From: Puniceibacterium sp. IMCC21224
GTDB lineage: Bacteria; Pseudomonadota; Alphaproteobacteria; Rhodobacterales; Rhodobacteraceae
NCBI RefSeq assembly: GCF_001038505.1
Contig: NZ_LDPY01000009.1
Coordinates: 1-36,203, forward strand
Reading direction: 5' to 3'
Length of the DNA: 36,203 nucleotides
The notes under the pieces were generated by a model. The model did no database searches and had not been told where the DNA came from. It worked only from the letters and a program-made list of their open reading frames with translations. The first letter of the stretch is position 1; each line of letters opens with the position of its first letter. Shown here piece after piece: positions 4,502-36,203 of this stretch. Position numbers and translations under genes: made by a program.

Positions 4502-4585
4502 TGGTACCCGCGACCGGATTCGAACCGGTACGGCTTGCGCCTGGAGATTTTAAGTCTCCTGTGTCTACCATTCCACCACGCGGGC
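4502..4585 (-). tRNA. tRNA-Leu(UAA)
   Basis: On the minus strand the acceptor stem GCCCGCG (from 4585) pairs with CGCGGGT, followed by ACCA at 4505-4502, so CCA is encoded. The anticodon arm is GAGA-CTTAAAA-TCTC with anticodon TAA. A long class II variable arm (AGGCGCAAGCCGT) and a GGTTCGAATCC T-loop complete the cloverleaf. The crossover boundary of the integrated element lies at 4547, immediately 3' of the anticodon. The 3' half is therefore chromosomal, while the 5' half (4547-4585) and everything upstream of it is sequence that also occurs at 27800. Confidence 0.95.
4547..4585. other. attL: left junction of the element within tRNA-Leu
   Basis: From ATTTTAAGTCTCC at 4547 onward the sequence is the same as from 27800 onward, while the bases to the left differ (CTGGAG here, CCAGAGA there). 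The break falls in the anticodon stem-loop, a standard crossover position for tyrosine recombinases. The shared tRNA part extends to 4585, but the right limit of the att core cannot be seen because the repeat continues for 8.4 kb. Confidence 0.75.
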
Positions 4586-4758
4586 AACCAGTTGGTTTCG
4601 CTGCGAAAAATGATGGTGAACACCCCGAAATCCGTCAGACAAGGCGGCCACAACGGCCACAAGATGTCGGCACAGTCACACAAAACCCGGCACAGCAAGA
4701 AATATCTATCCCGCTTTGGAAGCTAAGTCCAGATTTTGAAAGGTACTTTTGGGGGCCA

Positions 4759-5037
4759 GTGGGTAGGTCGGGCGAGAGCTGGGAATGGCAGCTTGCGTCG
4801 TTGGGGCGTGGGTATGGTCCGGTCCGACTTCCCAGAAACCGGGCACAATTCCGGGCACACCAAATATCGTATGCTATGACGACTGGAACCGACCCCGGCC
4901 CAATGCTGGTTTGCCACTCCTGCGACAACCCGAAATGCGTTCGTCCCGCCCATCTGCACAGTCTGGAGCCGCGAAAACAGATTCAACGAGCCAAAGAGCA
5001 ACCCCATCGCATAGAGGACGGCGTATATGGGATGTGA
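4759..5037 (+). CDS. HNH endonuclease, start uncertain (possibly degraded)
   Basis: Small HNH nuclease of the phage/homing type. The conserved core reads WEWQLASLGRGYGPVRL, then FRAHQISYAMTTG, then LVCHSCDNPKCVRPAHLHSL. The CDNP-C-V-P-HL pattern is the zinc/HNH signature, and H in RAHQISY fits the fold. Homology to such nucleases seems to begin slightly earlier, at PDFERYFWG. No ATG or convincing TTG is available there, so I used GTG 4759 as the only visible start (92 residues). In the copy at the element junction the same frame is open to an ATG at 27778. The stop overlaps the ATG of the next gene. HNH genes next to methyltransferase genes are common at phage and island ends. Confidence 0.6.
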   Translation: MGRSGESWEWQLASLGRGYGPVRLPRNRAQFRAHQISYAMTTGTDPGPMLVCHSCDNPKCVRPAHLHSLEPRKQIQRAKEQPHRIEDGVYGM

Positions 5038-5392
5038 ACTGATCCATGGGAGCTGCATGGAGGTGCTTCGAGGCATGCCGTCTGAGAGCATCGATGCGGT
5101 GGTAACCGACCCTACGTACGAACAGACCCCCTTGGCTTGGGACCGATGGCCGGATGGATGGCCGACAGAAGTTGCGCGAGTGCTCAAACCCACCGGATCA
5201 ATGTTGGTGTTTGGTACGCTGCGGATGTTCCTTGACCGACGCGACGACTTCCATGATTGGCGGATGGCACAGGACATCGTCCAAGAAAAGCAGAGCGGAT
5301 CTAGCATGCTCGCCGATCGCTTCCCCCAGCCCAAAGCGGCCCTGCCCACCACACCAGACCCTCGGCGTGAGGTCAGTCACGTCCGGCCCTGA
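5027..5392 (+). pseudogene. Truncated beta-class DNA methyltransferase (N-terminal part)
   Basis: The N-terminal half of an N4-cytosine/N6-adenine DNA methyltransferase of the phage type. It begins MGCELIHGSCMEVLRGMPSESID, followed by catalytic motif IV as AVVTDPTY (DPPY in most relatives). The conserved ARVLKPTGSMLVFGTLR and QDIVQEKQSGSSMLADRF follow. After about residue 98 the sequence stops resembling the family (PQPKAALPTT...), and the SAM-binding FxGxG region is absent, so an active enzyme is unlikely. It overlaps the HNH stop by 11 bases. The same truncation is present in the second copy, so it predates the duplication. Confidence 0.75.
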
Positions 5393-5617
5393 CCTGCCGT
5401 TCGCTTCATTGCCGAGCGCTGCGGTGCAGCTTCACCAGACCGGCCATTCGTCCACCGTGCAGCATTTTCGGTGGGTGAAGGTCGGCAGAGCGGACGAAGT
5501 GTGAATTCGCTGCAGTTTTACCAATGGTGGGTTTCGTCGCATTGCGACCGAAGTGAGCAAGGTGAAATCGCTTGCGACTACGGCTAGCAAGAGTGATCTC
5601 GGTTCTCTCTTCTTCGT

Positions 5618-6484
5618 TCAGATCCAGCGCAAATGGTCGCAGATACCGGCAAGCTCGAGGTCGGAAAACTGATGTCTGATCAGGCCATAAGTACGCGTTA
5701 ATGTCTCGGGGGTTTTCATGTCACCCATGTCGGTGGCATGAATGCCGCCCGCAACAAAGTAAGCGGCAAATCCGTTCTGGGCAGCGCCTTTGATATCTGT
5801 CGGCAAGCCATCACCCACAACAAGTATTCGACTTTTTGAAATCGTGCGCCCCGCAATGATGGTCATTTGCGTCAGGGCCGCTTGATAAATTGGTGCCTCT
5901 GGCTTGCCCGCATAGGTGACTTTGCCGCCAAGTTTTGCGTAGAGCTGCGCGATTGATCCCGCACAGATCACTATGCGGTGACCGCTTCTCACGACCAAGT
6001 CAGGGTTGGCGCAGATCATATCGATTGCATTGCCCCGCATTTCCCGCAATAGCGGTTCATAGATGTCAGCGCTTTCAATCCCGTCATCCAGAGGGCCGGT
6101 CAGTAGACACAGCTTGGTGTCCCGACTGCCGACCAATGGGTGTGTCAGGCCTTCCAAGATAGACTGGTCCCGCACCGGGCCGAAGTGAAACAAAGGCGTG
6201 TCGGGCCGCTTTTGCAGCAGCGATGTGGTCACATCGCCTGATGTGACCACGGCATCAAAGGCTTCGCGCGGGACGCCAAGTCGCGCCAGTTGCGGATAGA
6301 TAACATGGTTGGACCGCGGAGCGTTGGTGATCAACACGACTATCCCGCCCTGTGCCCGATATCTGCATAAGGCATCTACCGCGTCCGGAAAGGCGGCAAC
6401 GCCGTTGTGCAAGACACCCCAGATGTCGCAGAGTATGCCGTCATAGTGTGGTGCTAGATCACTGAGTGGCATGAGTTTGGCCAT
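5618..6484 (-). CDS. HAD-superfamily class IIA phosphatase (TIGR01459-like)
   Basis: A 288-residue cytoplasmic HAD hydrolase with a class IIA cap, related to NagD/4-nitrophenylphosphatase. Motif I is YDGILCDIWGVLHNG, with nucleophile D20 and W22 in place of the second Asp, as in the alphaproteobacterial subgroup I know as TIGR01459. Motif II is VVLITNAPR, motif III lysine is in YAGKPEAPIY, and motif IV is LVVGDGLPTDIKGA. The ATG at 6484 (MAKLMPLSDLAPHYDG) is the natural start. It is divergent from the transaminase/CDP-alcohol operon, with a 404-bp gap, so a role in the same pathway (for example dephosphorylating a head-group precursor) is possible but unproven. The natural substrate is unknown. 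Confidence 0.85.
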   Translation of the reverse strand: MAKLMPLSDLAPHYDGILCDIWGVLHNGVAAFPDAVDALCRYRAQGGIVVLITNAPRSNHVIYPQLARLGVPREAFDAVVTSGDVTTSLLQKRPDTPLFHFGPVRDQSILEGLTHPLVGSRDTKLCLLTGPLDDGIESADIYEPLLREMRGNAIDMICANPDLVVRSGHRIVICAGSIAQLYAKLGGKVTYAGKPEAPIYQAALTQMTIIAGRTISKSRILVVGDGLPTDIKGAAQNGFAAYFVAGGIHATDMGDMKTPETLTRTYGLIRHQFSDLELAGICDHLRWI

Positions 6485-6888
6485 AAGACCCGTGGACTAC
6501 GGCCCGGCACGCGCCCAGTCAAGCGCCGCATAGGTCGCTTGCTATTTGCGTTTTTGCTCTGTAATTATGCATCTTCGCGATCAGTCAGGATCGCAGACAA
6601 TACGCGACAAGGTTACCCGCTTCGGCGCAACTTGCCTGCCTACCACGACATTTGAATAGGTTTTTTAGGCCGACGGTGCGCTGGTTTTCAGCACGCAATG
6701 ATGTCCAATTCCACGAGATGTGTGGAGTGAAGTCTTTTTCAGAACCGCCTGCGTTCAATTTCCGGACGCCATATTCCACGGCATCTTTTCAGGCTGTGTT
6801 TTCGAAATCGATTTGTGCCCTCTCGGTGTTCACGCGCGTTCCTCGCACGTGGAGATATCATGGGCGTAGCGGCTTTGTGTCCAGGCAC
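6485..6888. other. Divergent intergenic region with a hairpin
   Basis: No gene is supported here. A reading frame is open upstream of the transaminase start but does not resemble that family. An inverted repeat GCGATC-AGTCAG-GATCGC lies at 6577-6594 and could be an operator or RNA hairpin. The region must carry the promoters of the HAD gene and of the rightward operon. It is more AT-rich than the surrounding genes. Confidence 0.4.
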
Positions 6889-8103
6889 ATGAGGTCGAAG
6901 AAGATTGAACTTGTTTTGGACAAATACCTGCTTTTCACCCCCGGCCCCGTCAATGTGGCCGCTTCCCTTCGCAATGCGATCTGCAAAGAAGACATCTGCC
7001 ACCGCGAACCCGACTTTGATGGTCTATTGGCGAGCATAGAACAAAAGCTGCTTTCGCTGTTCGAAATTAAAAAACGCGACCGCTACCGCGCCGTTGTTAT
7101 CACTGGCTCAGGGACTGCCGCAAATGAGGCGATCTTGTCCTCTGTGGTAGGGACCGGCGCGATTCTGATCCTGTCGAATGGCGAATTTGGGGAGCGTTTG
7201 CATAAAACCTCGCTCATTCACAACAAGCACACCTATCTACTGCAACAGCCTTGGGGAATGCCTTTCGATCCGGACCAGATCGCGACCTACCTTGCTGCCC
7301 ATAAGATCGATGCAATCGCGATGGTCCATCACGAGACTTGCTCTGGGATGCTGAACCCGCTCGCTGCGATCGGTGCAATGGCGAAGGCCCATGGCGCGAT
7401 CTTTGTCGTCGATGGCGTCAGTTCTGTCGGTGCCGAAGTCGTTGATATGGAAGGTTGCAATATTGCCTTTTGTTCTAGTTCCAGCTCCAAGGCCATCGGG
7501 TCATATCCCGGACTTTCATTCGTGATCGGGCGCAAGAAACAGTTCAAAAAGCTGAAACTGCATGCCGCCAAGACAACATACCTCAACCTCGCGACGTTCT
7601 ACGGCTTTCTCAAGCGACATAGCCAAACACCCAATACGCCTGCTGTTCCGCTTTTTTTTGCCTTTGATCAAGCGCTCACCAACATTCTGTCCGAGGGCGT
7701 CGCCAACCGTTTCGCACGGATACGGGCCCGCGCGGGCCAGCTTCGGCTGGGTATGCGAAAGCTTAATCTTGAGTTTGTTCTGGATGAAGAGGACATGTGC
7801 GCGATCCTGACGACAGTCAGGGTGCCCCCGTCGATCTATATCCGGGAATTGCGAGACAAGCTGCGCGAGAAATCAATTATCATCTACGAGGGCAAAGGCT
7901 GTTTTGCCGGGAAAGTCTTTCAGGTTGGCAATATCGGCGAATTATCTGATCATGATATTCAATTCTTCCTCAGCACGTTGAGGAGCGTGTTGCTAGAACT
8001 GCAGGCAAAAGCCGTCGACGGTATCGCCCCTATCAGACCGATGACCGCCAAACCAACCATTCAGGCACTTCCAAAGCCAAAGTTGGCAAAGATCCTATCA
8101 TGA
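6889..8103 (+). CDS. Class V PLP aminotransferase, 2-aminoethylphosphonate transaminase-like
   Basis: Fold-type I aminotransferase of the AEP:pyruvate transaminase (PhnW)/alanine-glyoxylate branch. It has YLLFTPGPVNVAASLRNAI at the N terminus, VITGSGTAANEAIL for cofactor phosphate contacts, VHHETCSGMLNPL and IFVVDGVSSVGAEVVDM with the pyridine-N aspartate. The Schiff-base lysine is K201 in SSSSSKAIGSYPG, where AEP transaminases have SNKCLEGVPG. With ATG 6889 (MRSKKIELVLDKYLL) it has 404 residues. The frame is open further upstream but that part is unlike the family. It overlaps the next gene by 4 bases (ATGA). With the two downstream genes it suggests an amino-bearing head group that is activated and transferred. 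No phosphoenolpyruvate mutase or phosphonopyruvate decarboxylase is visible, so the substrate may not be a phosphonate. Confidence 0.8.
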   Translation: MRSKKIELVLDKYLLFTPGPVNVAASLRNAICKEDICHREPDFDGLLASIEQKLLSLFEIKKRDRYRAVVITGSGTAANEAILSSVVGTGAILILSNGEFGERLHKTSLIHNKHTYLLQQPWGMPFDPDQIATYLAAHKIDAIAMVHHETCSGMLNPLAAIGAMAKAHGAIFVVDGVSSVGAEVVDMEGCNIAFCSSSSSKAIGSYPGLSFVIGRKKQFKKLKLHAAKTTYLNLATFYGFLKRHSQTPNTPAVPLFFAFDQALTNILSEGVANRFARIRARAGQLRLGMRKLNLEFVLDEEDMCAILTTVRVPPSIYIRELRDKLREKSIIIYEGKGCFAGKVFQVGNIGELSDHDIQFFLSTLRSVLLELQAKAVDGIAPIRPMTAKPTIQALPKPKLAKILS

Positions 8104-8867
8104 CTGATAAGATTACGCGGCTTTGGACGACAAAGACCAAAGAGGACGAATGGTGGTCTTCGTTTGTCACCGCGCCATTAGGGATCTTTGCAAACTATTG
8201 GGCCGTTGATATTCCGGCGATTACGCCAAACCGTCTCACCGCCGCATCCTTTGCGGTCGCTGTCGCCGCGACCTTGTGCATTTTGATCGGCGGTTTTGGC
8301 TGGTTCATGGCCGCGGCTATCCTGATCCATCTTAGCCACATTCTGGATTGCATGGACGGCCAAATGGCCCGCTACAGAAAAGTGTCGTCACCGGTCGGTA
8401 GCTACTTTGACCGTTTAACAGATCAGGTCCAGATCACGCTATGGTTTGGGGCGGCTGGTTATGCTGCCTATGCGCAATCGCTCAGCGTCGTGCCGGTATT
8501 CCTCGCCCTGATCGGCATCGCGTTCTATGGGCTGCGCGGCTATGTGAAGTACATCGCGCTCCAAATCGAAACCGCGCTTGATCCCGAATATCCCGCAAGA
8601 ATGGTACACCTGAAACGGCAGGAACCGGTGGCCGGTTTGGGCTTTGGCGTCGTGGCAAATGTTAAATGGCTATTGAAGGAACAACCAAAGATTCTGGCAT
8701 TTGACGAAGGCGTGTTCATCTTCATGCTGTCAGCGGCGCTCATTTTTGACCAACTCACACCAATGCTGTGGATTTTCGCAGCAAGTCAGGTGATTTGGGG
8801 AACCCTAAAATCATGGCAGCGCGGCAAGAATATTGACGCAAACCAAAAGAGCATCATCCAGAAATAA
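8100..8867 (+). CDS. CDP-alcohol phosphatidyltransferase family membrane protein
   Basis: Integral membrane enzyme that transfers a phospho-alcohol or phosphono group from a CDP-activated donor to an acceptor alcohol. The family signature D-x2-D-G-x2-A-R-x8-G-x3-D-x3-D is complete: D83, D86, G87, A90-R91, G100, D104, D108 (DCMDGQMARYRKV...GSYFDRLTD). Several hydrophobic helices flank it (for example LTAASFAVAVAATLCILIGG and VVPVFLALIGIAFYGL). Length is 255 residues. It is coupled to the transaminase (ATGA overlap) and 34 bp ahead of the nucleotidyltransferase, which would supply its CDP-linked substrate. The extended soluble loop at about 150-200 (ALDPEYPARMVHLKRQE) is not typical of phosphatidylserine or phosphatidylglycerophosphate synthases. 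That fits a specialised capsule, lipid or phosphonolipid enzyme. Confidence 0.85.
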   Translation: MTDKITRLWTTKTKEDEWWSSFVTAPLGIFANYWAVDIPAITPNRLTAASFAVAVAATLCILIGGFGWFMAAAILIHLSHILDCMDGQMARYRKVSSPVGSYFDRLTDQVQITLWFGAAGYAAYAQSLSVVPVFLALIGIAFYGLRGYVKYIALQIETALDPEYPARMVHLKRQEPVAGLGFGVVANVKWLLKEQPKILAFDEGVFIFMLSAALIFDQLTPMLWIFAASQVIWGTLKSWQRGKNIDANQKSIIQK

Positions 8868-8901
8868 TCCCCCACATCGCTAATGAAGTCAGGACAAACT
8901 C

Positions 8902-9723
8902 ATGAATTACGACAACAATCGCCCACCCATGGCCGTTATACTGGCCGCTGGCATCGGCTCACGGCTCAGCCCTTTAACGGACAAAAGCGCAAAAAGCCTC
9001 CTGTCTGTTGGAGGCTCTGTCATCCTGGAACGTATGATCCGCAATTGCCTAAGCTGCGGGATGTCTCAATTCGTTTTGGTGTTGGGCCACCGTGCAGACG
9101 AGATCAAACAGTTCGTTGATAAAACGTTTCGCGGAATCCGCGTCACATATGTGATCAATGACCGGTATCGTGATACCAACACAGGGTATTCGCTGATGCT
9201 TGCGTCAACCGTTGTGGGAACTGCCGAGTTCATCAAATTCGATGCAGATGTAGTGTTCGACACGAAGATCCTGCGTGCATTGGTGGACAGTGAATTGCCC
9301 AACGTCCTGTGCATCGACCGCAACATCGCGCTGGCCGATGAAGAGGTGAAAGTGATCACAGATGATCAAATGCGGGTCCGCGAGATTGGTAAAACAGTCG
9401 ACCCCAAAACGGCACTCGGTGAGTCCATTGGAATTGAGAAAATCAGCGCTTTTACAGGCCCACTGCTATTTGCCGAGTTGAAAGAGATGATGGAAAACGC
9501 AGGAAATGCGCAGGAGTATTATGAAGCGGCCTACGCGCGGCTGATCGCTAAAGGGATGCCTTTTCATGCGCTGGATATCACAGGGATGAATTGGACCGAG
9601 ATTGATACGCCTGAAGATTTTGCAACTGCAAACGCACTGTTTGGCACACCAATCGCGACCGTATCGCGCGGGCAACAACGAGCATTGGACGAAGCGCGTA
9701 CAAACCCGCGGCGTTCAATATAG
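8902..9723 (+). CDS. Nucleotidyltransferase, LicC/PntC/IPCT-like (probable CTP-dependent)
   Basis: A Rossmann-type NTP transferase of 273 residues that joins a sugar- or amino-alcohol phosphate (or phosphonate) to a nucleotide. The P-loop-like start AVILAAGIGSRLSPLTDKSAKSLLSVGG contains G17-x-G19-x-R21 and catalytic K31. DADVVFD is the metal-binding region and WTEIDTPEDFA matches the C-terminal signature of phosphocholine and inositol-phosphate cytidylyltransferases. The start is ATG 8902, and M10 is also possible. A CDP-linked product would feed the preceding CDP-alcohol transferase. A cytidylyltransferase for 2-aminoethylphosphonate (PntC) is known in bacteria, often linked to an AEP transaminase, and the gene set here mirrors that. 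Nucleotide specificity cannot be told from sequence alone. Confidence 0.8.
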   Translation: MNYDNNRPPMAVILAAGIGSRLSPLTDKSAKSLLSVGGSVILERMIRNCLSCGMSQFVLVLGHRADEIKQFVDKTFRGIRVTYVINDRYRDTNTGYSLMLASTVVGTAEFIKFDADVVFDTKILRALVDSELPNVLCIDRNIALADEEVKVITDDQMRVREIGKTVDPKTALGESIGIEKISAFTGPLLFAELKEMMENAGNAQEYYEAAYARLIAKGMPFHALDITGMNWTEIDTPEDFATANALFGTPIATVSRGQQRALDEARTNPRRSI

Positions 9724-10372
9724 GCCCATGGAAGGATTCATCGCGCGTCCATAACTGGCGCGTGATGTATATTCGCGCTGGCAGTCATCTCCAGTGAGTG
9801 CCCGACTTGCCGCGGCAAAGGACTGCAATAGGTGCTTATCGTTCCTTGATGCACGTTTCAGCAACAAGCACATTGGGCTCGAAGCCGCCTTGCGGCGGTG
9901 CGGCAGCACATCCGCAGCGAAATCACATGAGATCCCGGTTGCCCGATGGCAGCTGTCAGCCCTTCCACGACATTTGTGCCTGGCGCAGCATGACGCGGGG
10001 CTCCGACACGAAGGGCGGAAACCGGTCATTCGCTGCATGTCAAACAAGCCTTGTCTTTTTCGAAAACCGAATGAAAACCTGCTACGTTCTAATGTTGTCT
10101 GAATTAATCTCGGTTGGCCTTCATGAACCTCTATCCTTAAGAGATCGAAGTCATACCAATGGGCAGGGACCGATTAGATTTTCCGTGATAATTAGATCTT
10201 GGCAGGATTGACGAGGCACTCGCCTATTTCGCTGGTCGCACAATAAATGAGGCTCCCGGTTCAGAATTTTGTAACGGAATACCAAGTAGACGTTTTTTAA
10301 TATTGCCCAACCTATCATTGCGCTGTTGTCCCGGACAGCCACGGTATCGACCGTAGCGGGGTTTGAACTCAG
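9724..10372. other. Long non-coding gap, possible degenerate interspersed sequence
   Basis: I see no supported gene in these 649 bases. Overlapping short frames have no family resemblance. The part at 9850-10050 is GC-rich and contains wording such as GGTCATTCGCTGCA that recalls repeated intergenic debris of Rhodobacteraceae (memory, not checked). The part at 10060-10330 is clearly AT-richer and probably holds the promoter of the large secreted-protein gene. No strong terminator follows the nucleotidyltransferase. Confidence 0.35.
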
Positions 10373-13300
10373 ATGGATCGCTCAATTTCATATTGCTGGC
10401 CTGCCCAGAGGTTGCTCCGTCTTTTCAAGGCGGTGCGAACGAAAGTGGTTGTTTTTCTGTTGGCGTTTTTTTCGCTATCGGGGGCTGACGTGGCACAGGC
10501 GCAGGAGTCTTGTGGGGCTGCCTGCGTGTTCGCAGGCCCCCGAATGGCCAGTGTGGAATCCAGCGAGTCAGAGCTGTTGGGCCCCATCCTTTCGGGGTTG
10601 CTTGGCACCGATGTCGGCCTGAGCGTTCTGGATTGGAATGCGATGGCCGGTGCCAACATTGATCTTTTGGGCCTTCTTGGTGAAAACGGGCAGGATGTCA
10701 CGGTTTCTGATCCGGGGCAGATCGCCAATGTTGACCTGACCCTGCTGGACCTTGTCCAAGCCTCGGCCGCAGTTGCAGAGGCTGATGGTGATACCGCGTT
10801 GGTGAACGCCTTGAATGCCCTGAGCGTGCCGATCGCCGAGCTGAACCAGACCATCAATCTGGCTGACCTCATCACGATCGGCTTGCCCCAAGGGTCTTTG
10901 GCGACGCTGGAGCTGAATGCACTGGACCTGATCGGTGGGGCGATCCAACTTTACAACTATGAAAACGTCGTGACCACGACACAGCCCATCGCGCTTAACA
11001 ACGCCATTCTGGAACAATTCGGCATTGGCGGAGCAGAGATATTGCTGCAGGTTGTCGAGCCGCCCCATTTCGAATGCGGGGGGGCTGGAACGCAGTTCCA
11101 TACCTCGACCGTGCGCGCGAAACTTTCCGTGGATCTGGCCGATATCGAGCTGGATACCGCTGTGCTGGACGGTGCTCTCGGCGCACTTGTCGGGGGGCTG
11201 ATCGCGACAGATGTCACTTTGGGGGACGTTGATCTTTATTTCGAATTCGGTCGCGTGGACGGCACGATCCTGTCGGCCGACCCCGCGACGAAGACGGCCA
11301 GCGTCATTCTTGCGCCCAGTGCAATCGACCTGTTTCTGGGCGGTATCGACGACGCCATATTCTTCAACCGCGATCGGCCGATCGCGCAGTCAGATGTCGA
11401 CTTCGCGACCGTTGCCGAGCTTGACGTCTCCTTGTTTGGAGGTCTGGTTCAGGAAAGCGCGGGCGTGCGGGTGAAATCCTTTGCGCAGAGCGCGCCGCAA
11501 ACAAGCGAGACGTTGTTCTTCTCGCCACCCTATCCGCAAAGGCAGGCCATCGGGGATGGCGCCTCATCGTTCAGCGATCTCATCGGAACCCTTGCGGAAA
11601 ACCTTGACGTGGAAGTTGAAGACAGTCTGGGAAATCTGGTTGGTCCGCTGATTGATACGACGATCGAACCTCTGGTGGGGGATCTGGTCGGCGGTCTGTT
11701 GGTGGATGCGATCTCTCCGATTCTGGACCTTACCGTTGATCCTCTACTCGGGTTTTTCGGCGTCGGGATCGGAGAGGCGGAAGCGTCAATTTCGGGGGTG
11801 ACGTCAATCTGCACCGACTACGCGGATTGCCCGGTTTCAGGCCCGGCACCCGATGGCACCGCAACGGCGAATTACGGCAGCCCTTACCATCTGATCTATG
11901 AGACGTTGTTCATGGGCTCTGCCGTGCCAGATACGGAGTCGGCGCCGCAGACAAACGCGACGGCCACCGGGGATGACGAAAGCGGGATCGACGACGAAGA
12001 TGGCGTTGTTCTGCCGCCCTTGCCCGTTGGCACGACCCAGACCGTCGAGATCAGCGTGAGCGAAACAGGAGGAGAGGCCGGATATCTGCAGGCCTGGATC
12101 GACTGGAACGGAGACGGCACCTTCGGGGCGGGCGAACAAATCGCAAATGATGTGACCTCAAACGGGGCCGGGGTGATTTCGCTGTCCGTGGTTGTTCCCC
12201 CCAACGCACGGCCAGGGGCCAGCTTCGCGCGGTTCCGCTGGTCCACGCAAGCCGACCTGGATCCCATCGAGATTGCTCCGGACGGCGAGGTCGAGGATCA
12301 CGCTGTCGCCCTGTCCGGGACACCACGCCCCAGGCTTTCGGGCCAGGTCATTGCCGACACCGGCGCAGGAAACGGCAGTGCCCATGACGGTGCGCTTAAT
12401 GGTGGCGAGGCGGGCTTGGCAACGGTATCGGTCAGGATCGAGACGCCCGAGGGGCAGACCATCGCGGTGACGATGACGGATGACCTTGGCAATTGGTCCG
12501 TAGATCTTCCACCTGGTTTCGAGGGGCCTGCAATCGCGAGGGTGGTGGTGCCGGACGGCATGCTGGCGATCTCCGAAAGCACTTCAGGCTCGCCTGCGAT
12601 CGTGCCATCCCCGCCAAACGATGGGGCGATTCTTCTGGACCTCGCGAGCGACAGCATCGTGAGCAACCTTGCCTTGGGCCTGATCCCCGTGCCGCGGCTG
12701 TCCGAAGATTCCGTCACCTATACGCAATCGGGGCAGATCGCCGTTCTCCTTCACGACTACGTTGCAGGCAGCAAGGGCAGCGTCACGTTTTCCGTCGAAG
12801 ACCTGAGCCTTCCATCCGAGGGCGCGGCCAGTGTTGCACTGTTTCATGACGAGGATTGCGATGGCACCCTCGGAGCTGTCATTTCCGCACCCTTTGCCGT
12901 GGAAACTGGCGACCGTATCTGCATCCTGTCGCGCGTTGCCACGGGTTCTGGATTGCCGGATGGTGCCGCCGTCACCTATCGGCTCACTGCGACCACCGCG
13001 TTTGATGATGTCAGTGCCACGGTGCAGGCTGACAACACCGACCGCGTTATCATCGGCAGTGGCGGCGGGATCATCGTCGAAAAAACGGTCGAAAACCTGA
13101 CCCGGATGACCGGCGAAACGCATTCCAACAGCGGGGGGCCTGCCGATATTCTTCTGTACAGGATCCGCATTGTGAATACCGGGATTGAACCCGTGCGCGG
13201 AGTCCAGATCCACGATCACACCCCCCCCTACACGAGCCTCGATGGCGGGATTACACAAACGCTCACAATCGGCAGCGGGACCGAATGCACCCTCGCGCTG

Positions 13301-13411
13301 CCTGATACGGCGACGGTCGGTTACGTGGGTGGGATAAGGTGGGAATGCACTGGCGAGGTGCTGCCAGGATCAACCGCGACGTTTGAATTCAGGACCCGCA
13401 TTGACGAGTAG
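10373..13411 (+). CDS. Large secreted surface protein with GEVED, SdrD-B-like and DUF11 domains
   Basis: A 1012-residue exported protein. An N-terminal signal peptide has a basic stretch (LFKAVRTK), a hydrophobic core (VVVFLLAFFSLSG) and a likely cleavage after AQA at about residue 43. Residues about 50-500 form a leucine/aspartate-rich region reminiscent of the extracellular part of TadG-like surface proteins (weak). At about 537-640 lies a GEVED domain (DDEDGVVLPPLPVG, then LQAWIDWNGDGTFGAGEQI, ending in DGEVEDHAVAL). At about 655-730 there is a carboxypeptidase-like/SdrD-B fold (GLATVSVRIETPEG, TDDLGNWSVDLPPG). At about 897-1010 a DUF11-type repeat (YRIRIVNTGIEPVRGVQIHD) ends the protein. 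No sortase motif or beta-barrel anchor is visible. A role as adhesin or surface-layer component is inference. The second copy is frame-broken. Confidence 0.8.
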   Translation: MDRSISYCWPAQRLLRLFKAVRTKVVVFLLAFFSLSGADVAQAQESCGAACVFAGPRMASVESSESELLGPILSGLLGTDVGLSVLDWNAMAGANIDLLGLLGENGQDVTVSDPGQIANVDLTLLDLVQASAAVAEADGDTALVNALNALSVPIAELNQTINLADLITIGLPQGSLATLELNALDLIGGAIQLYNYENVVTTTQPIALNNAILEQFGIGGAEILLQVVEPPHFECGGAGTQFHTSTVRAKLSVDLADIELDTAVLDGALGALVGGLIATDVTLGDVDLYFEFGRVDGTILSADPATKTASVILAPSAIDLFLGGIDDAIFFNRDRPIAQSDVDFATVAELDVSLFGGLVQESAGVRVKSFAQSAPQTSETLFFSPPYPQRQAIGDGASSFSDLIGTLAENLDVEVEDSLGNLVGPLIDTTIEPLVGDLVGGLLVDAISPILDLTVDPLLGFFGVGIGEAEASISGVTSICTDYADCPVSGPAPDGTATANYGSPYHLIYETLFMGSAVPDTESAPQTNATATGDDESGIDDEDGVVLPPLPVGTTQTVEISVSETGGEAGYLQAWIDWNGDGTFGAGEQIANDVTSNGAGVISLSVVVPPNARPGASFARFRWSTQADLDPIEIAPDGEVEDHAVALSGTPRPRLSGQVIADTGAGNGSAHDGALNGGEAGLATVSVRIETPEGQTIAVTMTDDLGNWSVDLPPGFEGPAIARVVVPDGMLAISESTSGSPAIVPSPPNDGAILLDLASDSIVSNLALGLIPVPRLSEDSVTYTQSGQIAVLLHDYVAGSKGSVTFSVEDLSLPSEGAASVALFHDEDCDGTLGAVISAPFAVETGDRICILSRVATGSGLPDGAAVTYRLTATTAFDDVSATVQADNTDRVIIGSGGGIIVEKTVENLTRMTGETHSNSGGPADILLYRIRIVNTGIEPVRGVQIHDHTPPYTSLDGGITQTLTIGSGTECTLALPDTATVGYVGGIRWECTGEVLPGSTATFEFRTRIDE

Positions 13412-22479: not shown

Positions 22480-22485
22480 GAGCAA

Positions 22486-26888: not shown

Positions 26889-27733
26889 ACCACGGTGGCC
26901 GTCCGAGGGTGCCGTTTTCGGAAGCCGCAGCAGCGTACATAGAGGAACACGTTTCAAGCCTAAGCGTCGATTCGATCCGGTTTTATCAAAGCATTGTCAG
27001 GGTCCTTAACGAGGAATTCGGGGCCTCTTATCTTGATGAAATTACCCGGAAAAGGCTGACCTCTTTTGAGGTGGCTCAGGCGAAAAGAGTATCGGCATCA
27101 CGGTTGAAACATTACCGGGCTGCGATGTCTGGGCTATTCAGAATTGCCCTGAGACATGAGTGGGTCGATGCCAATCCGTGCAAATTGCTTGATCCAATTC
27201 AAATCAATAATGAAAGAGAGAGGTTCTTGACCGCAAACGAATGGGATCAGCTTAAAAAAGCATTGACCGAACCATATCGCAGCATTGCGGAAATCTCCAT
27301 ACTTCGGGGCATGAGGTGCGGCGAAATATTGGCGATGAAATGGGTTGATGTCGATCAGCATCGCGACCTGATTACGATTCCGAAAGGCAAAGGAGGAAAG
27401 CGAAGGGTGATCCCCCTGGAAGAAGCCGCCCTGGTTCTTGATCGCCAGCCGCAGACGGGCAACCTAGTGTTTCCGGGCAGGACGGGACGGCCCATGCGCG
27501 TGGATGCTGTCTCGCGAAATGTGAACTCAGCCGCAAAAGGCTGCGGCATTCGGGATTTCACGTTCCACGACCTGCGGCACACGTTCGCATCTTGGTACGT
27601 CCAGAACGGCGGCGATATGTACCCATTGCAGATCATCCTTGGGCACAAGGGACCGGCGATGACACAGAGATATACGCACTTGCGGGTGGACGATTTGAGA
27701 AATTTCCGCACAAAAACCGGCACACTGCACTAG
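26744..27733 (+). CDS. int: Tyrosine-type site-specific integrase
   Basis: A 329-residue phage integrase. The N-terminal arm-binding part (MATVYKRGNTYWVRFQWRGQEVRKSART) is an AP2-like strand unit, followed by a SAM-like core-binding domain (about 60-150). The catalytic residues are R191 (LRGMRCGEIL), K at 216-219 (KGKGGKRRVIPL), H275 and R278 (FHDLRHTFASW), H301 (ILGHKGPAM) and nucleophile Y310 (TQRYTHL). All are present, so it should be active. It ends 66 bp before the tRNA-half junction at 27800 and points towards it, the usual int-att arrangement. The target is inferred to be the anticodon region of tRNA-Leu(UAA). Confidence 0.93.
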   Translation: MATVYKRGNTYWVRFQWRGQEVRKSARTTVKREAREYLAHIQEQYRRIDHGGRPRVPFSEAAAAYIEEHVSSLSVDSIRFYQSIVRVLNEEFGASYLDEITRKRLTSFEVAQAKRVSASRLKHYRAAMSGLFRIALRHEWVDANPCKLLDPIQINNERERFLTANEWDQLKKALTEPYRSIAEISILRGMRCGEILAMKWVDVDQHRDLITIPKGKGGKRRVIPLEEAALVLDRQPQTGNLVFPGRTGRPMRVDAVSRNVNSAAKGCGIRDFTFHDLRHTFASWYVQNGGDMYPLQIILGHKGPAMTQRYTHLRVDDLRNFRTKTGTLH

Positions 27734-27799: not shown

Positions 27800-27838
27800 A
27801 TTTTAAGTCTCCTGTGTCTACCATTCCACCACGCGGGC
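27800..27838 (-). other. Element junction (attP or attR-type) with the 5' half of tRNA-Leu
   Basis: Here only the 5' half of tRNA-Leu(UAA), through the anticodon (27838-27800 on the minus strand), is present. What should be its 3' half is element sequence. The bases after it repeat the left end of the element, not a new chromosomal flank. The 66 bp between integrase stop and junction include a CATG...GAATTCATG dyad that may be an integrase site. Confidence 0.75.
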
Positions 27839-28011
27839 AACCAGTTGGTTTCGCTGCGAAAAATGATGGTGAACACCCCGAAATCCGTCAGACAAGGCGG
27901 CCACAACGGCCACAAGATGTCGGCACAGTCACACAAAACCCGGCACAGCAAGAAATATCTATCCCGCTTTGGAAGCTAAGTCCAGATTTTGAAAGGTACT
28001 TTTGGGGGCCA

Positions 28012-28290
28012 GTGGGTAGGTCGGGCGAGAGCTGGGAATGGCAGCTTGCGTCGTTGGGGCGTGGGTATGGTCCGGTCCGACTTCCCAGAAACCGGGCACA
28101 ATTCCGGGCACACCAAATATCGTATGCTATGACGACTGGAACCGACCCCGGCCCAATGCTGGTTTGCCACTCCTGCGACAACCCGAAATGCGTTCGTCCC
28201 GCCCATCTGCACAGTCTGGAGCCGCGAAAACAGATTCAACGAGCCAAAGAGCAACCCCATCGCATAGAGGACGGCGTATATGGGATGTGA
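28012..28290 (+). CDS. HNH endonuclease, copy 2
   Basis: Same sequence as the HNH gene at 4759-5037. Here the frame is also open upstream across the att junction to ATG 27778 (MFEFMPENFKSPV...), giving a possible 170-residue protein whose first part reads antisense through the tRNA half. That long form exists only when integrase end and element left end are joined. Confidence 0.55.
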   Translation: MGRSGESWEWQLASLGRGYGPVRLPRNRAQFRAHQISYAMTTGTDPGPMLVCHSCDNPKCVRPAHLHSLEPRKQIQRAKEQPHRIEDGVYGM

Positions 28291-28645
28291 ACTGATCCAT
28301 GGGAGCTGCATGGAGGTGCTTCGAGGCATGCCGTCTGAGAGCATCGATGCGGTGGTAACCGACCCTACGTACGAACAGACCCCCTTGGCTTGGGACCGAT
28401 GGCCGGATGGATGGCCGACAGAAGTTGCGCGAGTGCTCAAACCCACCGGATCAATGTTGGTGTTTGGTACGCTGCGGATGTTCCTTGACCGACGCGACGA
28501 CTTCCATGATTGGCGGATGGCACAGGACATCGTCCAAGAAAAGCAGAGCGGATCTAGCATGCTCGCCGATCGCTTCCCCCAGCCCAAAGCGGCCCTGCCC
28601 ACCACACCAGACCCTCGGCGTGAGGTCAGTCACGTCCGGCCCTGA
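28280..28645 (+). pseudogene. Truncated DNA methyltransferase, copy 2
   Basis: Identical to 5027-5392: DPTY motif present, SAM-binding half missing. Confidence 0.75.
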
Positions 28646-28870
28646 CCTGCCGTTCGCTTCATTGCCGAGCGCTGCGGTGCAGCTTCACCAGACCGGCCAT
28701 TCGTCCACCGTGCAGCATTTTCGGTGGGTGAAGGTCGGCAGAGCGGACGAAGTGTGAATTCGCTGCAGTTTTACCAATGGTGGGTTTCGTCGCATTGCGA
28801 CCGAAGTGAGCAAGGTGAAATCGCTTGCGACTACGGCTAGCAAGAGTGATCTCGGTTCTCTCTTCTTCGT

Positions 28871-29737
28871 TCAGATCCAGCGCAAATGGTCGCAGATACC
28901 GGCAAGCTCGAGGTCGGAAAACTGATGTCTGATCAGGCCATAAGTACGCGTTAATGTCTCGGGGGTTTTCATGTCACCCATGTCGGTGGCATGAATGCCG
29001 CCCGCAACAAAGTAAGCGGCAAATCCGTTCTGGGCAGCGCCTTTGATATCTGTCGGCAAGCCATCACCCACAACAAGTATTCGACTTTTTGAAATCGTGC
29101 GCCCCGCAATGATGGTCATTTGCGTCAGGGCCGCTTGATAAATTGGTGCCTCTGGCTTGCCCGCATAGGTGACTTTGCCGCCAAGTTTTGCGTAGAGCTG
29201 CGCGATTGATCCCGCACAGATCACTATGCGGTGACCGCTTCTCACGACCAAGTCAGGGTTGGCGCAGATCATATCGATTGCATTGCCCCGCATTTCCCGC
29301 AATAGCGGTTCATAGATGTCAGCGCTTTCAATCCCGTCATCCAGAGGGCCGGTCAGTAGACACAGCTTGGTGTCCCGACTGCCGACCAATGGGTGTGTCA
29401 GGCCTTCCAAGATAGACTGGTCCCGCACCGGGCCGAAGTGAAACAAAGGCGTGTCGGGCCGCTTTTGCAGCAGCGATGTGGTCACATCGCCTGATGTGAC
29501 CACGGCATCAAAGGCTTCGCGCGGGACGCCAAGTCGCGCCAGTTGCGGATAGATAACATGGTTGGACCGCGGAGCGTTGGTGATCAACACGACTATCCCG
29601 CCCTGTGCCCGATATCTGCATAAGGCATCTACCGCGTCCGGAAAGGCGGCAACGCCGTTGTGCAAGACACCCCAGATGTCGCAGAGTATGCCGTCATAGT
29701 GTGGTGCTAGATCACTGAGTGGCATGAGTTTGGCCAT
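28871..29737 (-). CDS. HAD class IIA phosphatase, copy 2
   Basis: Identical 288-residue product to the gene at 5618-6484, including motifs CDIWGVLHNG, LITNAPR and VGDGLPTD. The whole divergent upstream region is also repeated. Confidence 0.85.
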   Translation of the reverse strand: MAKLMPLSDLAPHYDGILCDIWGVLHNGVAAFPDAVDALCRYRAQGGIVVLITNAPRSNHVIYPQLARLGVPREAFDAVVTSGDVTTSLLQKRPDTPLFHFGPVRDQSILEGLTHPLVGSRDTKLCLLTGPLDDGIESADIYEPLLREMRGNAIDMICANPDLVVRSGHRIVICAGSIAQLYAKLGGKVTYAGKPEAPIYQAALTQMTIIAGRTISKSRILVVGDGLPTDIKGAAQNGFAAYFVAGGIHATDMGDMKTPETLTRTYGLIRHQFSDLELAGICDHLRWI

Positions 29738-30141
29738 AAGACCCGTGGACTACGGCCCGGCACGCGCCCAGTCAAGCGCCGCATAGGTCGCTTGCTATTT
29801 GCGTTTTTGCTCTGTAATTATGCATCTTCGCGATCAGTCAGGATCGCAGACAATACGCGACAAGGTTACCCGCTTCGGCGCAACTTGCCTGCCTACCACG
29901 ACATTTGAATAGGTTTTTTAGGCCGACGGTGCGCTGGTTTTCAGCACGCAATGATGTCCAATTCCACGAGATGTGTGGAGTGAAGTCTTTTTCAGAACCG
30001 CCTGCGTTCAATTTCCGGACGCCATATTCCACGGCATCTTTTCAGGCTGTGTTTTCGAAATCGATTTGTGCCCTCTCGGTGTTCACGCGCGTTCCTCGCA
30101 CGTGGAGATATCATGGGCGTAGCGGCTTTGTGTCCAGGCAC
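29738..30141. other. Divergent intergenic region, copy 2
   Basis: Repeat of 6485-6888, with the GCGATC/GATCGC inverted repeat at 29830-29847. No gene. Confidence 0.4.
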
Positions 30142-31356
30142 ATGAGGTCGAAGAAGATTGAACTTGTTTTGGACAAATACCTGCTTTTCACCCCCGGCCC
30201 CGTCAATGTGGCCGCTTCCCTTCGCAATGCGATCTGCAAAGAAGACATCTGCCACCGCGAACCCGACTTTGATGGTCTATTGGCGAGCATAGAACAAAAG
30301 CTGCTTTCGCTGTTCGAAATTAAAAAACGCGACCGCTACCGCGCCGTTGTTATCACTGGCTCAGGGACTGCCGCAAATGAGGCGATCTTGTCCTCTGTGG
30401 TAGGGACCGGCGCGATTCTGATCCTGTCGAATGGCGAATTTGGGGAGCGTTTGCATAAAACCTCGCTCATTCACAACAAGCACACCTATCTACTGCAACA
30501 GCCTTGGGGAATGCCTTTCGATCCGGACCAGATCGCGACCTACCTTGCTGCCCATAAGATCGATGCAATCGCGATGGTCCATCACGAGACTTGCTCTGGG
30601 ATGCTGAACCCGCTCGCTGCGATCGGTGCAATGGCGAAGGCCCATGGCGCGATCTTTGTCGTCGATGGCGTCAGTTCTGTCGGTGCCGAAGTCGTTGATA
30701 TGGAAGGTTGCAATATTGCCTTTTGTTCTAGTTCCAGCTCCAAGGCCATCGGGTCATATCCCGGACTTTCATTCGTGATCGGGCGCAAGAAACAGTTCAA
30801 AAAGCTGAAACTGCATGCCGCCAAGACAACATACCTCAACCTCGCGACGTTCTACGGCTTTCTCAAGCGACATAGCCAAACACCCAATACGCCTGCTGTT
30901 CCGCTTTTTTTTGCCTTTGATCAAGCGCTCACCAACATTCTGTCCGAGGGCGTCGCCAACCGTTTCGCACGGATACGGGCCCGCGCGGGCCAGCTTCGGC
31001 TGGGTATGCGAAAGCTTAATCTTGAGTTTGTTCTGGATGAAGAGGACATGTGCGCGATCCTGACGACAGTCAGGGTGCCCCCGTCGATCTATATCCGGGA
31101 ATTGCGAGACAAGCTGCGCGAGAAATCAATTATCATCTACGAGGGCAAAGGCTGTTTTGCCGGGAAAGTCTTTCAGGTTGGCAATATCGGCGAATTATCT
31201 GATCATGATATTCAATTCTTCCTCAGCACGTTGAGGAGCGTGTTGCTAGAACTGCAGGCAAAAGCCGTCGACGGTATCGCCCCTATCAGACCGATGACCG
31301 CCAAACCAACCATTCAGGCACTTCCAAAGCCAAAGTTGGCAAAGATCCTATCATGA
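30142..31356 (+). CDS. AEP-transaminase-like class V aminotransferase, copy 2
   Basis: Identical 404-residue product to that of 6889-8103, intact, with the PLP lysine in SSSSSKAIGSYPG. Confidence 0.8.
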   Translation: MRSKKIELVLDKYLLFTPGPVNVAASLRNAICKEDICHREPDFDGLLASIEQKLLSLFEIKKRDRYRAVVITGSGTAANEAILSSVVGTGAILILSNGEFGERLHKTSLIHNKHTYLLQQPWGMPFDPDQIATYLAAHKIDAIAMVHHETCSGMLNPLAAIGAMAKAHGAIFVVDGVSSVGAEVVDMEGCNIAFCSSSSSKAIGSYPGLSFVIGRKKQFKKLKLHAAKTTYLNLATFYGFLKRHSQTPNTPAVPLFFAFDQALTNILSEGVANRFARIRARAGQLRLGMRKLNLEFVLDEEDMCAILTTVRVPPSIYIRELRDKLREKSIIIYEGKGCFAGKVFQVGNIGELSDHDIQFFLSTLRSVLLELQAKAVDGIAPIRPMTAKPTIQALPKPKLAKILS

Positions 31357-32120
31357 CTGATAAGATTACGCGGCTTTGGACGACAAAGACCAAAGAGGAC
31401 GAATGGTGGTCTTCGTTTGTCACCGCGCCATTAGGGATCTTTGCAAACTATTGGGCCGTTGATATTCCGGCGATTACGCCAAACCGTCTCACCGCCGCAT
31501 CCTTTGCGGTCGCTGTCGCCGCGACCTTGTGCATTTTGATCGGCGGTTTTGGCTGGTTCATGGCCGCGGCTATCCTGATCCATCTTAGCCACATTCTGGA
31601 TTGCATGGACGGCCAAATGGCCCGCTACAGAAAAGTGTCGTCACCGGTCGGTAGCTACTTTGACCGTTTAACAGATCAGGTCCAGATCACGCTATGGTTT
31701 GGGGCGGCTGGTTATGCTGCCTATGCGCAATCGCTCAGCGTCGTGCCGGTATTCCTCGCCCTGATCGGCATCGCGTTCTATGGGCTGCGCGGCTATGTGA
31801 AGTACATCGCGCTCCAAATCGAAACCGCGCTTGATCCCGAATATCCCGCAAGAATGGTACACCTGAAACGGCAGGAACCGGTGGCCGGTTTGGGCTTTGG
31901 CGTCGTGGCAAATGTTAAATGGCTATTGAAGGAACAACCAAAGATTCTGGCATTTGACGAAGGCGTGTTCATCTTCATGCTGTCAGCGGCGCTCATTTTT
32001 GACCAACTCACACCAATGCTGTGGATTTTCGCAGCAAGTCAGGTGATTTGGGGAACCCTAAAATCATGGCAGCGCGGCAAGAATATTGACGCAAACCAAA
32101 AGAGCATCATCCAGAAATAA
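31353..32120 (+). CDS. CDP-alcohol phosphatidyltransferase, copy 2
   Basis: Identical product to the gene at 8100-8867, with the complete D-D-G-A-R-G-D-D signature and ATGA coupling to the transaminase. Confidence 0.85.
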   Translation: MTDKITRLWTTKTKEDEWWSSFVTAPLGIFANYWAVDIPAITPNRLTAASFAVAVAATLCILIGGFGWFMAAAILIHLSHILDCMDGQMARYRKVSSPVGSYFDRLTDQVQITLWFGAAGYAAYAQSLSVVPVFLALIGIAFYGLRGYVKYIALQIETALDPEYPARMVHLKRQEPVAGLGFGVVANVKWLLKEQPKILAFDEGVFIFMLSAALIFDQLTPMLWIFAASQVIWGTLKSWQRGKNIDANQKSIIQK

Positions 32121-32154
32121 TCCCCCACATCGCTAATGAAGTCAGGACAAACTC

Positions 32155-32976
32155 ATGAATTACGACAACAATCGCCCACCCATGGCCGTTATACTGGCCG
32201 CTGGCATCGGCTCACGGCTCAGCCCTTTAACGGACAAAAGCGCAAAAAGCCTCCTGTCTGTTGGAGGCTCTGTCATCCTGGAACGTATGATCCGCAATTG
32301 CCTAAGCTGCGGGATGTCTCAATTCGTTTTGGTGTTGGGCCACCGTGCAGACGAGATCAAACAGTTCGTTGATAAAACGTTTCGCGGAATCCGCGTCACA
32401 TATGTGATCAATGACCGGTATCGTGATACCAACACAGGGTATTCGCTGATGCTTGCGTCAACCGTTGTGGGAACTGCCGAGTTCATCAAATTCGATGCAG
32501 ATGTAGTGTTCGACACGAAGATCCTGCGTGCATTGGTGGACAGTGAATTGCCCAACGTCCTGTGCATCGACCGCAACATCGCGCTGGCCGATGAAGAGGT
32601 GAAAGTGATCACAGATGATCAAATGCGGGTCCGCGAGATTGGTAAAACAGTCGACCCCAAAACGGCACTCGGTGAGTCCATTGGAATTGAGAAAATCAGC
32701 GCTTTTACAGGCCCACTGCTATTTGCCGAGTTGAAAGAGATGATGGAAAACGCAGGAAATGCGCAGGAGTATTATGAAGCGGCCTACGCGCGGCTGATCG
32801 CTAAAGGGATGCCTTTTCATGCGCTGGATATCACAGGGATGAATTGGACCGAGATTGATACGCCTGAAGATTTTGCAACTGCAAACGCACTGTTTGGCAC
32901 ACCAATCGCGACCGTATCGCGCGGGCAACAACGAGCATTGGACGAAGCGCGTACAAACCCGCGGCGTTCAATATAG
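32155..32976 (+). CDS. LicC/PntC-like nucleotidyltransferase, copy 2
   Basis: Identical product to the gene at 8902-9723. This is the last fully intact gene of copy 2 in the window. Confidence 0.8.
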   Translation: MNYDNNRPPMAVILAAGIGSRLSPLTDKSAKSLLSVGGSVILERMIRNCLSCGMSQFVLVLGHRADEIKQFVDKTFRGIRVTYVINDRYRDTNTGYSLMLASTVVGTAEFIKFDADVVFDTKILRALVDSELPNVLCIDRNIALADEEVKVITDDQMRVREIGKTVDPKTALGESIGIEKISAFTGPLLFAELKEMMENAGNAQEYYEAAYARLIAKGMPFHALDITGMNWTEIDTPEDFATANALFGTPIATVSRGQQRALDEARTNPRRSI

Positions 32977-33625
32977 GCCCATGGAAGGATTCATCGCGCG
33001 TCCATAACTGGCGCGTGATGTATATTCGCGCTGGCAGTCATCTCCAGTGAGTGCCCGACTTGCCGCGGCAAAGGACTGCAATAGGTGCTTATCGTTCCTT
33101 GATGCACGTTTCAGCAACAAGCACATTGGGCTCGAAGCCGCCTTGCGGCGGTGCGGCAGCACATCCGCAGCGAAATCACATGAGATCCCGGTTGCCCGAT
33201 GGCAGCTGTCAGCCCTTCCACGACATTTGTGCCTGGCGCAGCATGACGCGGGGCTCCGACACGAAGGGCGGAAACCGGTCATTCGCTGCATGTCAAACAA
33301 GCCTTGTCTTTTTCGAAAACCGAATGAAAACCTGCTACGTTCTAATGTTGTCTGAATTAATCTCGGTTGGCCTTCATGAACCTCTATCCTTAAGAGATCG
33401 AAGTCATACCAATGGGCAGGGACCGATTAGATTTTCCGTGATAATTAGATCTTGGCAGGATTGACGAGGCACTCGCCTATTTCGCTGGTCGCACAATAAA
33501 TGAGGCTCCCGGTTCAGAATTTTGTAACGGAATACCAAGTAGACGTTTTTTAATATTGCCCAACCTATCATTGCGCTGTTGTCCCGGACAGCCACGGTAT
33601 CGACCGTAGCGGGGTTTGAACTCAG
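32977..33625. other. Non-coding gap, copy 2
   Basis: Repeat of 9724-10372. No gene, and no difference from copy 1 noticed. Confidence 0.4.
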
Positions 33626-36203
33626 ATGGATCGCTCAATTTCATATTGCTGGCCTGCCCAGAGGTTGCTCCGTCTTTTCAAGGCGGTGCGAACGAAAGTG
33701 GTTGTTTTTCTGTTGGCGTTTTTTTCGCTATCGGGGGCTGACGTGGCACAGGCGCAGGAGTCTTGTGGGCTGCCTGCGTGTTCGCAGGCCCCCGAATGGC
33801 CAGTGTGGAATCCAGCGAGTCAGAGCTGTTGGGCCCCATCCTTTCGGGGTTGCTTGGCACCGATGTCGGCCTGAGCGTTCTGGATTGGAATGCGATGGCC
33901 GGTGCCAACATTGATCTTTTGGGCCTTCTTGGTGAAAACGGGCAGGATGTCACGGTTTCTGATCCGGGGCAGATCGCCAATGTTGACCTGACCCTGCTGG
34001 ACCTTGTCCAAGCCTCGGCCGCAGTTGCAGAGGCTGATGGTGATACCGCGTTGGTGAACGCCTTGAATGCCCTGAGCGTGCCGATCGCCGAGCTGAACCA
34101 GACCATCAATCTGGCTGACCTCATCACGATCGGCTTGCCCCAAGGGTCTTTGGCGACGCTGGAGCTGAATGCACTGGACCTGATCGGTGGGGCGATCCAA
34201 CTTTACAACTATGAAAACGTCGTGACCACGACACAGCCCATCGCGCTTAACAACGCCATTCTGGAACAATTCGGCATTGGCGGAGCAGAGATATTGCTGC
34301 AGGTTGTCGAGCCGCCCCATTTCGAATGCGGGGGGCTGGAACGCAGTTCCATACCTCGACCGTGCGCGCGAAACTTTCCGTGGATCTGGCCGATATCGAG
34401 CTGGATACCGCTGTGCTGGACGGTGCTCTCGGCGCACTTGTCGGGGGGCTGATCGCGACAGATGTCACTTTGGGGGACGTTGATCTTTATTTCGAATTCG
34501 GTCGCGTGGACGGCACGATCCTGTCGGCCGACCCCGCGACGAAGACGGCCAGCGTCATTCTTGCGCCCAGTGCAATCGACCTGTTTCTGGGCGGTATCGA
34601 CGACGCCATATTCTTCAACCGCGATCGGCCGATCGCGCAGTCAGATGTCGACTTCGCGACCGTTGCCGAGCTTGACGTCTCCTTGTTTGGAGGTCTGGTT
34701 CAGGAAAGCGCGGGCGTGCGGGTGAAATCCTTTGCGCAGAGCGCGCCGCAAACAAGCGAGACGTTGTTCTTCTCGCCACCCTATCCGCAAAGGCAGGCCA
34801 TCGGGGATGGCGCCTCATCGTTCAGCGATCTCATCGGAACCCTTGCGGAAAACCTTGACGTGGAAGTTGAAGACAGTCTGGGAAATCTGGTTGGTCCGCT
34901 GATTGATACGACGATCGAACCTCTGGTGGGGGATCTGGTCGGCGGTCTGTTGGTGGATGCGATCTCTCCGATTCTGGACCTTACCGTTGATCCTCTACTC
35001 GGGTTTTTCGGCGTCGGGATCGGAGAGGCGGAAGCGTCAATTTCGGGGGTGACGTCAATCTGCACCGACTACGCGGATTGCCCGGTTTCAGGCCCGGCAC
35101 CCGATGGCACCGCAACGGCGAATTACGGCAGCCCTTACCATCTGATCTATGAGACGTTGTTCATGGGCTCTGCCGTGCCAGATACGGAGTCGGCGCCGCA
35201 GACAAACGCGACGGCCACCGGGGATGACGAAAGCGGGATCGACGACGAAGATGGCGTTGTTCTGCCGCCCTTGCCCGTTGGCACGACCCAGACCGTCGAG
35301 ATCAGCGTGAGCGAAACAGGAGGAGAGGCCGGATATCTGCAGGCCTGGATCGACTGGAACGGAGACGGCACCTTCGGGGCGGGCGAACAAATCGCAAATG
35401 ATGTGACCTCAAACGGGGCCGGGGTGATTTCGCTGTCCGTGGTTGTTCCCCCCAACGCACGGCCAGGGGCCAGCTTCGCGCGGTTCCGCTGGTCCACGCA
35501 AGCCGACCTGGATCCCATCGAGATTGCTCCGGACGGCGAGGTCGAGGATCACGCTGTCGCCCTGTCCGGGACACCACGCCCAGGCTTTCGGGCCAGGTCA
35601 TTGCCGACACCGGCGCAGGAAACGGCAGTGCCCATGACGGTGCGCTTAATGGTGGCGAGGCGGGCTTGGCAACGGTATCGGTCAGGATCGAGACGCCCGA
35701 GGGGCAGACCATCGCGGTGACGATGACGGATGACCTTGGCAATTGGTCCGTAGATCTTCCACCTGGTTTCGAGGGGCCTGCAATCGCGAGGGTGGTGGTG
35801 CCGGACGGCATGCTGGCGATCTCCGAAAGCACTTCAGGCTCGCCTGCGATCGTGCCATCCCCGCCAAACGATGGGCGATTCTTCTGGACCTCGCGAGCGA
35901 CAGCATCGTGAGCAACCTTGCCTTGGGCCTGATCCCCGTGCCGCGGCTGTCCGAAGATTCCGTCACCTATACGCAATCGGGGCAGATCGCCGTTCTCCTT
36001 CACGACTACGTTGCAGGCAGCAAGGGCAGCGTCACGTTTTCCGTCGAAGACCTGAGCCTTCCATCCCGAGGGCGCGGCCAGTGTTGCACTGTTTCATGAC
36101 GAGGATTGCGATGGCACCCTCGGAGCTGTCATTTCCGCACCCTTTGCCGTGGAAACTGGCGACCGTATCTGCATCCTGTCGCGCGTTGCCACGGGTTCTG
36201 GAT
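33626..36203 (+). pseudogene. GEVED/DUF11 surface protein, copy 2, frame-broken and cut by window end
   Basis: Same gene as 10373-13411, but the reading frame changes at five homopolymer runs (33767, 34330, 35579, 35873, 36065). As written, it would stop soon after the signal peptide. Every change is a single G or C in a run, none is a substitution, and they cluster towards the end of the sequence. Uncorrected sequencing error near a contig end is therefore a better explanation than five real mutations. The C-terminal DUF11 part lies beyond the window. Confidence 0.75.

Follow-up and report, generated by a model that had tools for sequence, protein, structure and literature searches.

What does it mean when an assembled contig runs from the chromosome into an integrase-bearing island at a tRNA gene and then begins the same island again without leaving it? 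This question is raised by the smallest contig of the Puniceibacterium sp. IMCC21224 assembly (NZ_LDPY01000009.1, here C9). The window analysed was the complete contig of 36,203 bp, and the right end of the window is the contig end. The genome comprises 5.56 Mb in nine contigs, where C1 is 4,144,425 bp and C2–C8 range from 441,716 to 47,003 bp. C9 was found to carry a 23.25-kb tyrosine-integrase island at tRNA-Leu(UAA). We consider it probable, at roughly 0.6, that the sequenced DNA was mixed, the site being both empty and occupied and the island being also joined head to tail, with the joined form most likely a circle. At the time of sequencing, the island was probably mobile.

The direct repeat and the attachment junctions

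The sequence from 4547 was found to re-start exactly at 27800. Positions 4547–10516 are identical to 27800–33769 (5,970 bp), the offset being constant at 23,253 bp. In an alignment with single-base gaps the repeat reached the last base of C9, with 8,412 columns, no mismatches and six gap positions, one of which adjoins the attachment (att) core. A match of such length is not due to chance. One unit of the island, core included, occupies 4547–27799, and the second copy (27800–36203; 8,404 bp) is incomplete and stops at the contig end. An earlier sequence-only reading of the window had described this re-start, a repeat of at least 8.4 kb, an intact tyrosine integrase 66 bp before the re-start and a tRNA-Leu at the junction, and all four were confirmed; the integrase frame ends at 27733, and ARAGORN placed a tRNA-Leu gene with the anticodon TAA at 4502–4585 on the minus strand. 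The same reading had found no substitutions between the copies. This held, but the copies can be told apart by five one-base length changes, each in a run of G or C (copy 1/copy 2: 10517/33770, 11084/34336, 12331/35582, 12626/35876 and 12818/36067). In copy 2 all five lie between 33770 and 36067, within the last 2.4 kb of C9, and about 15% of the bases in this stretch sit in runs of three or more. A 1,012-codon frame (10373–13411, plus strand), encoding a GEVED-domain protein, is uninterrupted in copy 1 but broken in copy 2. Since the changes are confined to runs near the contig end and the frame is broken in copy 2, they look like contig-end sequencing error rather than divergence. An older, diverged second copy was rejected on the same grounds, with zero substitutions and changes solely in G/C runs.

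The single assembly contains attB on C1, attL at C9:4547 and an element-to-element junction, attP, at C9:27800. All three share a 39-bp core, which lies on the minus strand at 4547–4585 in attL and at 27800–27838 in attP, and is identical to C1:3969089–3969127. The core in attL covers tRNA positions 1–39, from the 5′ end of the tRNA (4585) to 4547, and the anticodon begins at tRNA position 34. The left flank (1–4501) is chromosomal and shared with C1. C9:1–4546 matches C1:3964545–3969088, and the sole differences between C9:1–4585 and C1 are two extra C nucleotides in C runs, at 2887 and 3629. A 494-codon stop-to-stop frame in the flank is open in the C1 form and broken in C9. The differences near both ends of C9 fit thin coverage there. 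On C1 the site was found to be empty: an intact tRNA-Leu (anticodon TAA) at C1:3969044–3969127 has chromosome on both sides, and the C1 sequence beyond this tRNA is unique chromosome without a match in the window. When 300 bp spanning the 27800 junction were used as a query, the only matches were the junction itself, the core region of attL and the C1 copy of the 39-bp core. With this query no attR, the junction of the right island end with unique chromosome, was found on any contig of the assembly.

Forms of the island in the sequenced DNA

The integrase gene (26744–27733, plus strand; 329 aa; PF00589, 111 bits) is an open frame inside the element, at the distance from the attP core given above. 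Together with a gene for an HTH_17, excisionase-like protein (26577–26888, plus strand; PF12728 and PHROG excisionase families), it adjoins this core. On the proposed mechanism, the integrase would recombine attP with the tRNA-Leu gene, with strand exchange in or beside the anticodon-loop segment. The island carries the 5′ half of the tRNA gene, so that a complete tRNA is rebuilt at its left end on insertion, and the native promoter should remain at the right end together with the displaced 5′ half. The integrase and the excisionase-like protein may reverse the reaction. The joined form would then be the excised circle, and the assembler would have gone from the integrated copy through the attP junction. 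A circle is favoured because nothing requires a second integrated copy.

Several observations support this explanation. The re-start coincides exactly with the 39-bp core found in attL and at the empty site. Between the copies, and between the flank and C1, all differences are one-base changes in G/C runs close to contig ends. Islands with the same 5′-half duplication were found in two other genera of the family. The strongest evidence comes from outside the window: C1 reads through the empty site, where the tRNA is intact. The sequence-only reading had proposed an active element, present as a tandem array or as a mixture of integrated and circular forms, and the unoccupied tRNA-Leu flanked by chromosome on C1, together with the lack of an attR on the contigs, supports activity more strongly than the window by itself.

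Four points weigh against a mixture with a circle. The evidence is that of the assembly alone, with which an array is also compatible; the second copy ends after 8.4 of 23.25 kb; an attR is expected for an integrated single copy, yet none was found in the assembly; and the close relatives of the integrase came as protein sequences, so that the att site was read in this genome alone. The attR may have been dropped by the assembler, and an array or a mixed assembly can hide it, so a complete integrated copy is claimed with less certainty.

The missing attR would also suit an array too long to cross, in which at least two head-to-tail copies stand at tRNA-Leu in the element-bearing chromosomes and C9 starts in the flank, traverses copy 1 and enters copy 2. 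The assembled C9 has exactly that form, and precedents exist in SGI1, which is known in tandem arrays (PMC2297512), and in the 125 tandems of two or more given for the Islander collection (PMC4383910). However, a second integrated copy is not needed, the joined copy is incomplete, and C1 indicates that excision or absence was frequent enough to assemble. Such an array is possible but unlikely.

The empty site could also come from a second clone. In that case one clone would lack the island, another would carry a stable tandem copy, nothing would have moved at the time, and C1 and C9 would look identical to what was found. The flank, however, differs from the chromosome by only two homopolymer changes over 4.6 kb, so that the clones would have to be nearly identical, and the integrase frame is open with no sign of inactivation. 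Mixed clones are therefore improbable.

The repeat at the join also leads to the question of whether the assembler made the 27800 join over the 39-bp core, as C9 is the smallest contig and carries differences near both ends. We consider this very improbable. Nine contigs, one of 4.14 Mb, suggest long reads, which a 39-bp repeat should not mislead. The second copy runs on for 8.4 kb with differences of its own, and an artefact leaves the empty site in C1 unexplained.

Gene content and relatives of the island

The cargo at 5618–9723 was found to contain a HAD hydrolase (minus strand), a PhnW-like aminotransferase, a CDP-alcohol phosphatidyltransferase and an NTP transferase (Pfam, NCBIfam); the aminotransferase scores below its NCBIfam cut-off. 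The aminotransferase, phosphatidyltransferase and NTP-transferase set (6652–9723) is lower in GC (51–52%). The set possibly serves a modified lipid or surface head group, and a phosphonolipid-like pathway would be a guess. PEP-mutase-family genes are present on C2 and C1, but 11 of 14 control genomes likewise have matches to this family. Further genes of the island encode LysR, SDR and DUF2303 proteins (Pfam/NCBIfam), and an IS3-family insertion sequence (16791–18302, minus strand) has near-identical copies on C1 and C2. At the left end of the island, an HNH-like frame lies just below the Pfam cut-off. A DNA-methylase frame at 5027–5392, also at the left end, covers only the first part of its Pfam profile and is identical in both copies, which points to a truncated or frameshifted gene. 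Of the 104 frames of at least 100 aa in the window, Pfam scans covered 22 and PHROG scans 10, and no relaxase, transfer or capsid genes were found in them.

In searches of the rest of the genome, which scored 40 candidates out of 85 and 40 out of 124, only copies of the insertion sequence, a 1.18-kb piece, the core and short matches were found, and a second island locus was dropped. The 1.18-kb piece (25219–26397), which holds the DUF2303 gene, is 99.9% identical to C1:89185–90366 (L185), near a tRNA-Thr gene; it may be what is left of a related island, or may have been exchanged recently.

The closest relatives of the integrase among protein sequences were 52–70% identical, and the best named matches, both of the integrase and of a flank gene, were from Rhodobacterales-type bacteria, the order being judged from their names. 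Genome scans for relatives of the integrase, with its own genome counted, gave 2 of 295 genomes in the family (the other one at 35%), a single one of the 5 in the genus and 2 of the 390 in the order. A single-sequence scan of genome contigs confirmed none of 79 stretches as integrase relatives, and in the alignment scans the 80 loci retained per scan had at most 41% identity. No tRNA was present at four loci that contain weaker relatives. The 12 plasmid and 108 phage records with E ≤ 1e-20 gave no integrase match of at least 60% identity. The plasmid search with the island gave 110 records; 19 of the 20 listed match the insertion sequence, and the best of the listed matches was the LysR/SDR stretch in Gemmobacter fulvus (77%). 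In viral contigs none of 53 tRNA pattern matches was a 5′-half att fragment, all 53 being complete tRNAs.

The 5′ half of tRNA-Leu(UAA) as a target

The intact tRNA (4502–4585) lies at one end of the island, and its matching 39-bp fragment (27800–27838) was seen at the element-to-element junction rather than at attR. The fragment holds the 5′-terminal part of the tRNA and is located upstream of the complete one, as in islands of the 5′-fragment class. The junctions indicate that the island replaces the 5′ half of the tRNA-Leu gene and displaces the promoter of the gene. Among the 3,919 islands of the Islander collection, a 5′ tDNA fragment is given for 159 and a 3′ one for 3,760 (PMC4383910). 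The C9 island resembles the former in its tyrosine integrase, its tRNA gene target, the displaced tDNA fragment on the 5′ side and the crossover by the anticodon loop, and differs in having empty, occupied and joined forms within one assembly. The pTN3-like integrases also use the 5′ half of the tRNA gene, a mode described as seldom met in bacteria; these elements, however, are archaeal, with integrases of the suicidal type, and their rebuilt tRNA is expressed from the integrase promoter, whereas the integrase of the C9 island is at the opposite island end (PMC8371274). SGI1 is likewise a tyrosine-integrase island reported in tandem, but it is a different element (PMC2297512).

The tRNA-Leu pattern was found in 166 of 394 genomes of the family, its own included, and was present twice in five other genomes (G148, G154, G176, G204 and G266). 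G204 contained two complete tRNAs and was rejected as a further case of the 5′ type. In G148, G154, G176 and G266 one match was a 5′ fragment beside a complete tRNA. The islands of G176 (L218:3149–9670; 6.4 kb) and G148 (L219:3062–7189; 4.05 kb), from two other genera, share the same tRNA-Leu and the same 5′-half duplication with the C9 island but are much smaller than its 23.25 kb. Their integrase-like genes adjoin the rebuilt tRNA and are 33% alike. The gene of G176 matches the C9 integrase only marginally (E 0.022, single comparison) and scores below the Phage_integrase cut-off, and that of G148 seems to be interrupted by transposase-like frames. The displaced fragment of G176 retains TTTACA-16-TATGTT upstream, a score equalled by 10% of shuffles.

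G154 (L220:1012–1389) is a less clear case, where the complete tRNA-Leu, 291 bp away from the displaced 5′ fragment, has a different acceptor stem, as though a foreign tRNA had taken the place of the original. Decayed or diverged 5′ fragments were found in G342 and G151. A noncoding insertion of about 126 bp between a 5′ fragment and a complete tRNA-Leu(UAA) was found in three genera, 81–83% alike, in 3 of 394 genomes (L221:1290–1424 in G266, L210:1374–1501 in G342 and L294, about 1463–1590, in G151); it looks like a minimal or remnant 5′-type insertion that would give the tRNA a new upstream region. As 5′-type insertions or fragments occur at the same tRNA-Leu gene in no fewer than six further genera of the family, this gene looks like a recurrent target of the less common mode.

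In attL, all of the sequence upstream of the rebuilt tRNA belongs to the island. The empty site has a sigma-70-like promoter, TTTACA-16-TATGCT, ending 11 bp upstream of the tRNA, and its score was matched by 2 of 300 shuffles (0.7%). In the replacing island sequence (4586–4660, minus strand) no consensus promoter passed the scan, the best site scoring 8/12 and being equalled by 23% of shuffles. At 31 loci of the family (30 from the tRNA pattern search and one extra), 32 upstream regions were compared, one of which precedes a fragment; a TTTAC or TTGAC motif was present in 15 and absent in 17, which cautions against concluding that a promoter is lost. The tRNA pattern, with at most one mismatch, occurs three times in the genome, at attB, attL and attP, and within this limit the tRNA-Leu(UAA) gene is probably single. 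TTA is rare among host genes, making up 23 of 1,980 leucine codons in 47 host open reading frames (20,371 codons). TTA codons are present in the HAD, aminotransferase, phosphatidyltransferase, NTP-transferase, SDR and insertion-sequence genes, and one is in the excisionase-like gene; the integrase gene has none.

Integration might act as a switch on the likely sole tRNA-Leu(UAA), with the consensus promoter swapped for a much weaker one and occupied cells reading UUA poorly until excision, but we regard this as doubtful. A literature search combining tRNA-Leu, UUA codon, bldA and integrase gave no match. If true, the switch would favour excision and help to explain a population that is part empty and part occupied, and UUA in the cargo and excisionase-like genes would let it feed back on the island.

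The C9 island is real, probably active and otherwise ordinary, using the less common 5′ half of the tRNA. The empty, occupied and joined forms kept in one assembly are evidence of movement without an experiment, and small leftover contigs can capture mobile elements in action. Because the apparently sole tRNA-Leu(UAA) gene of the host would be parted from its own promoter, the 5′-half mode would carry a cost, and this cost is testable.

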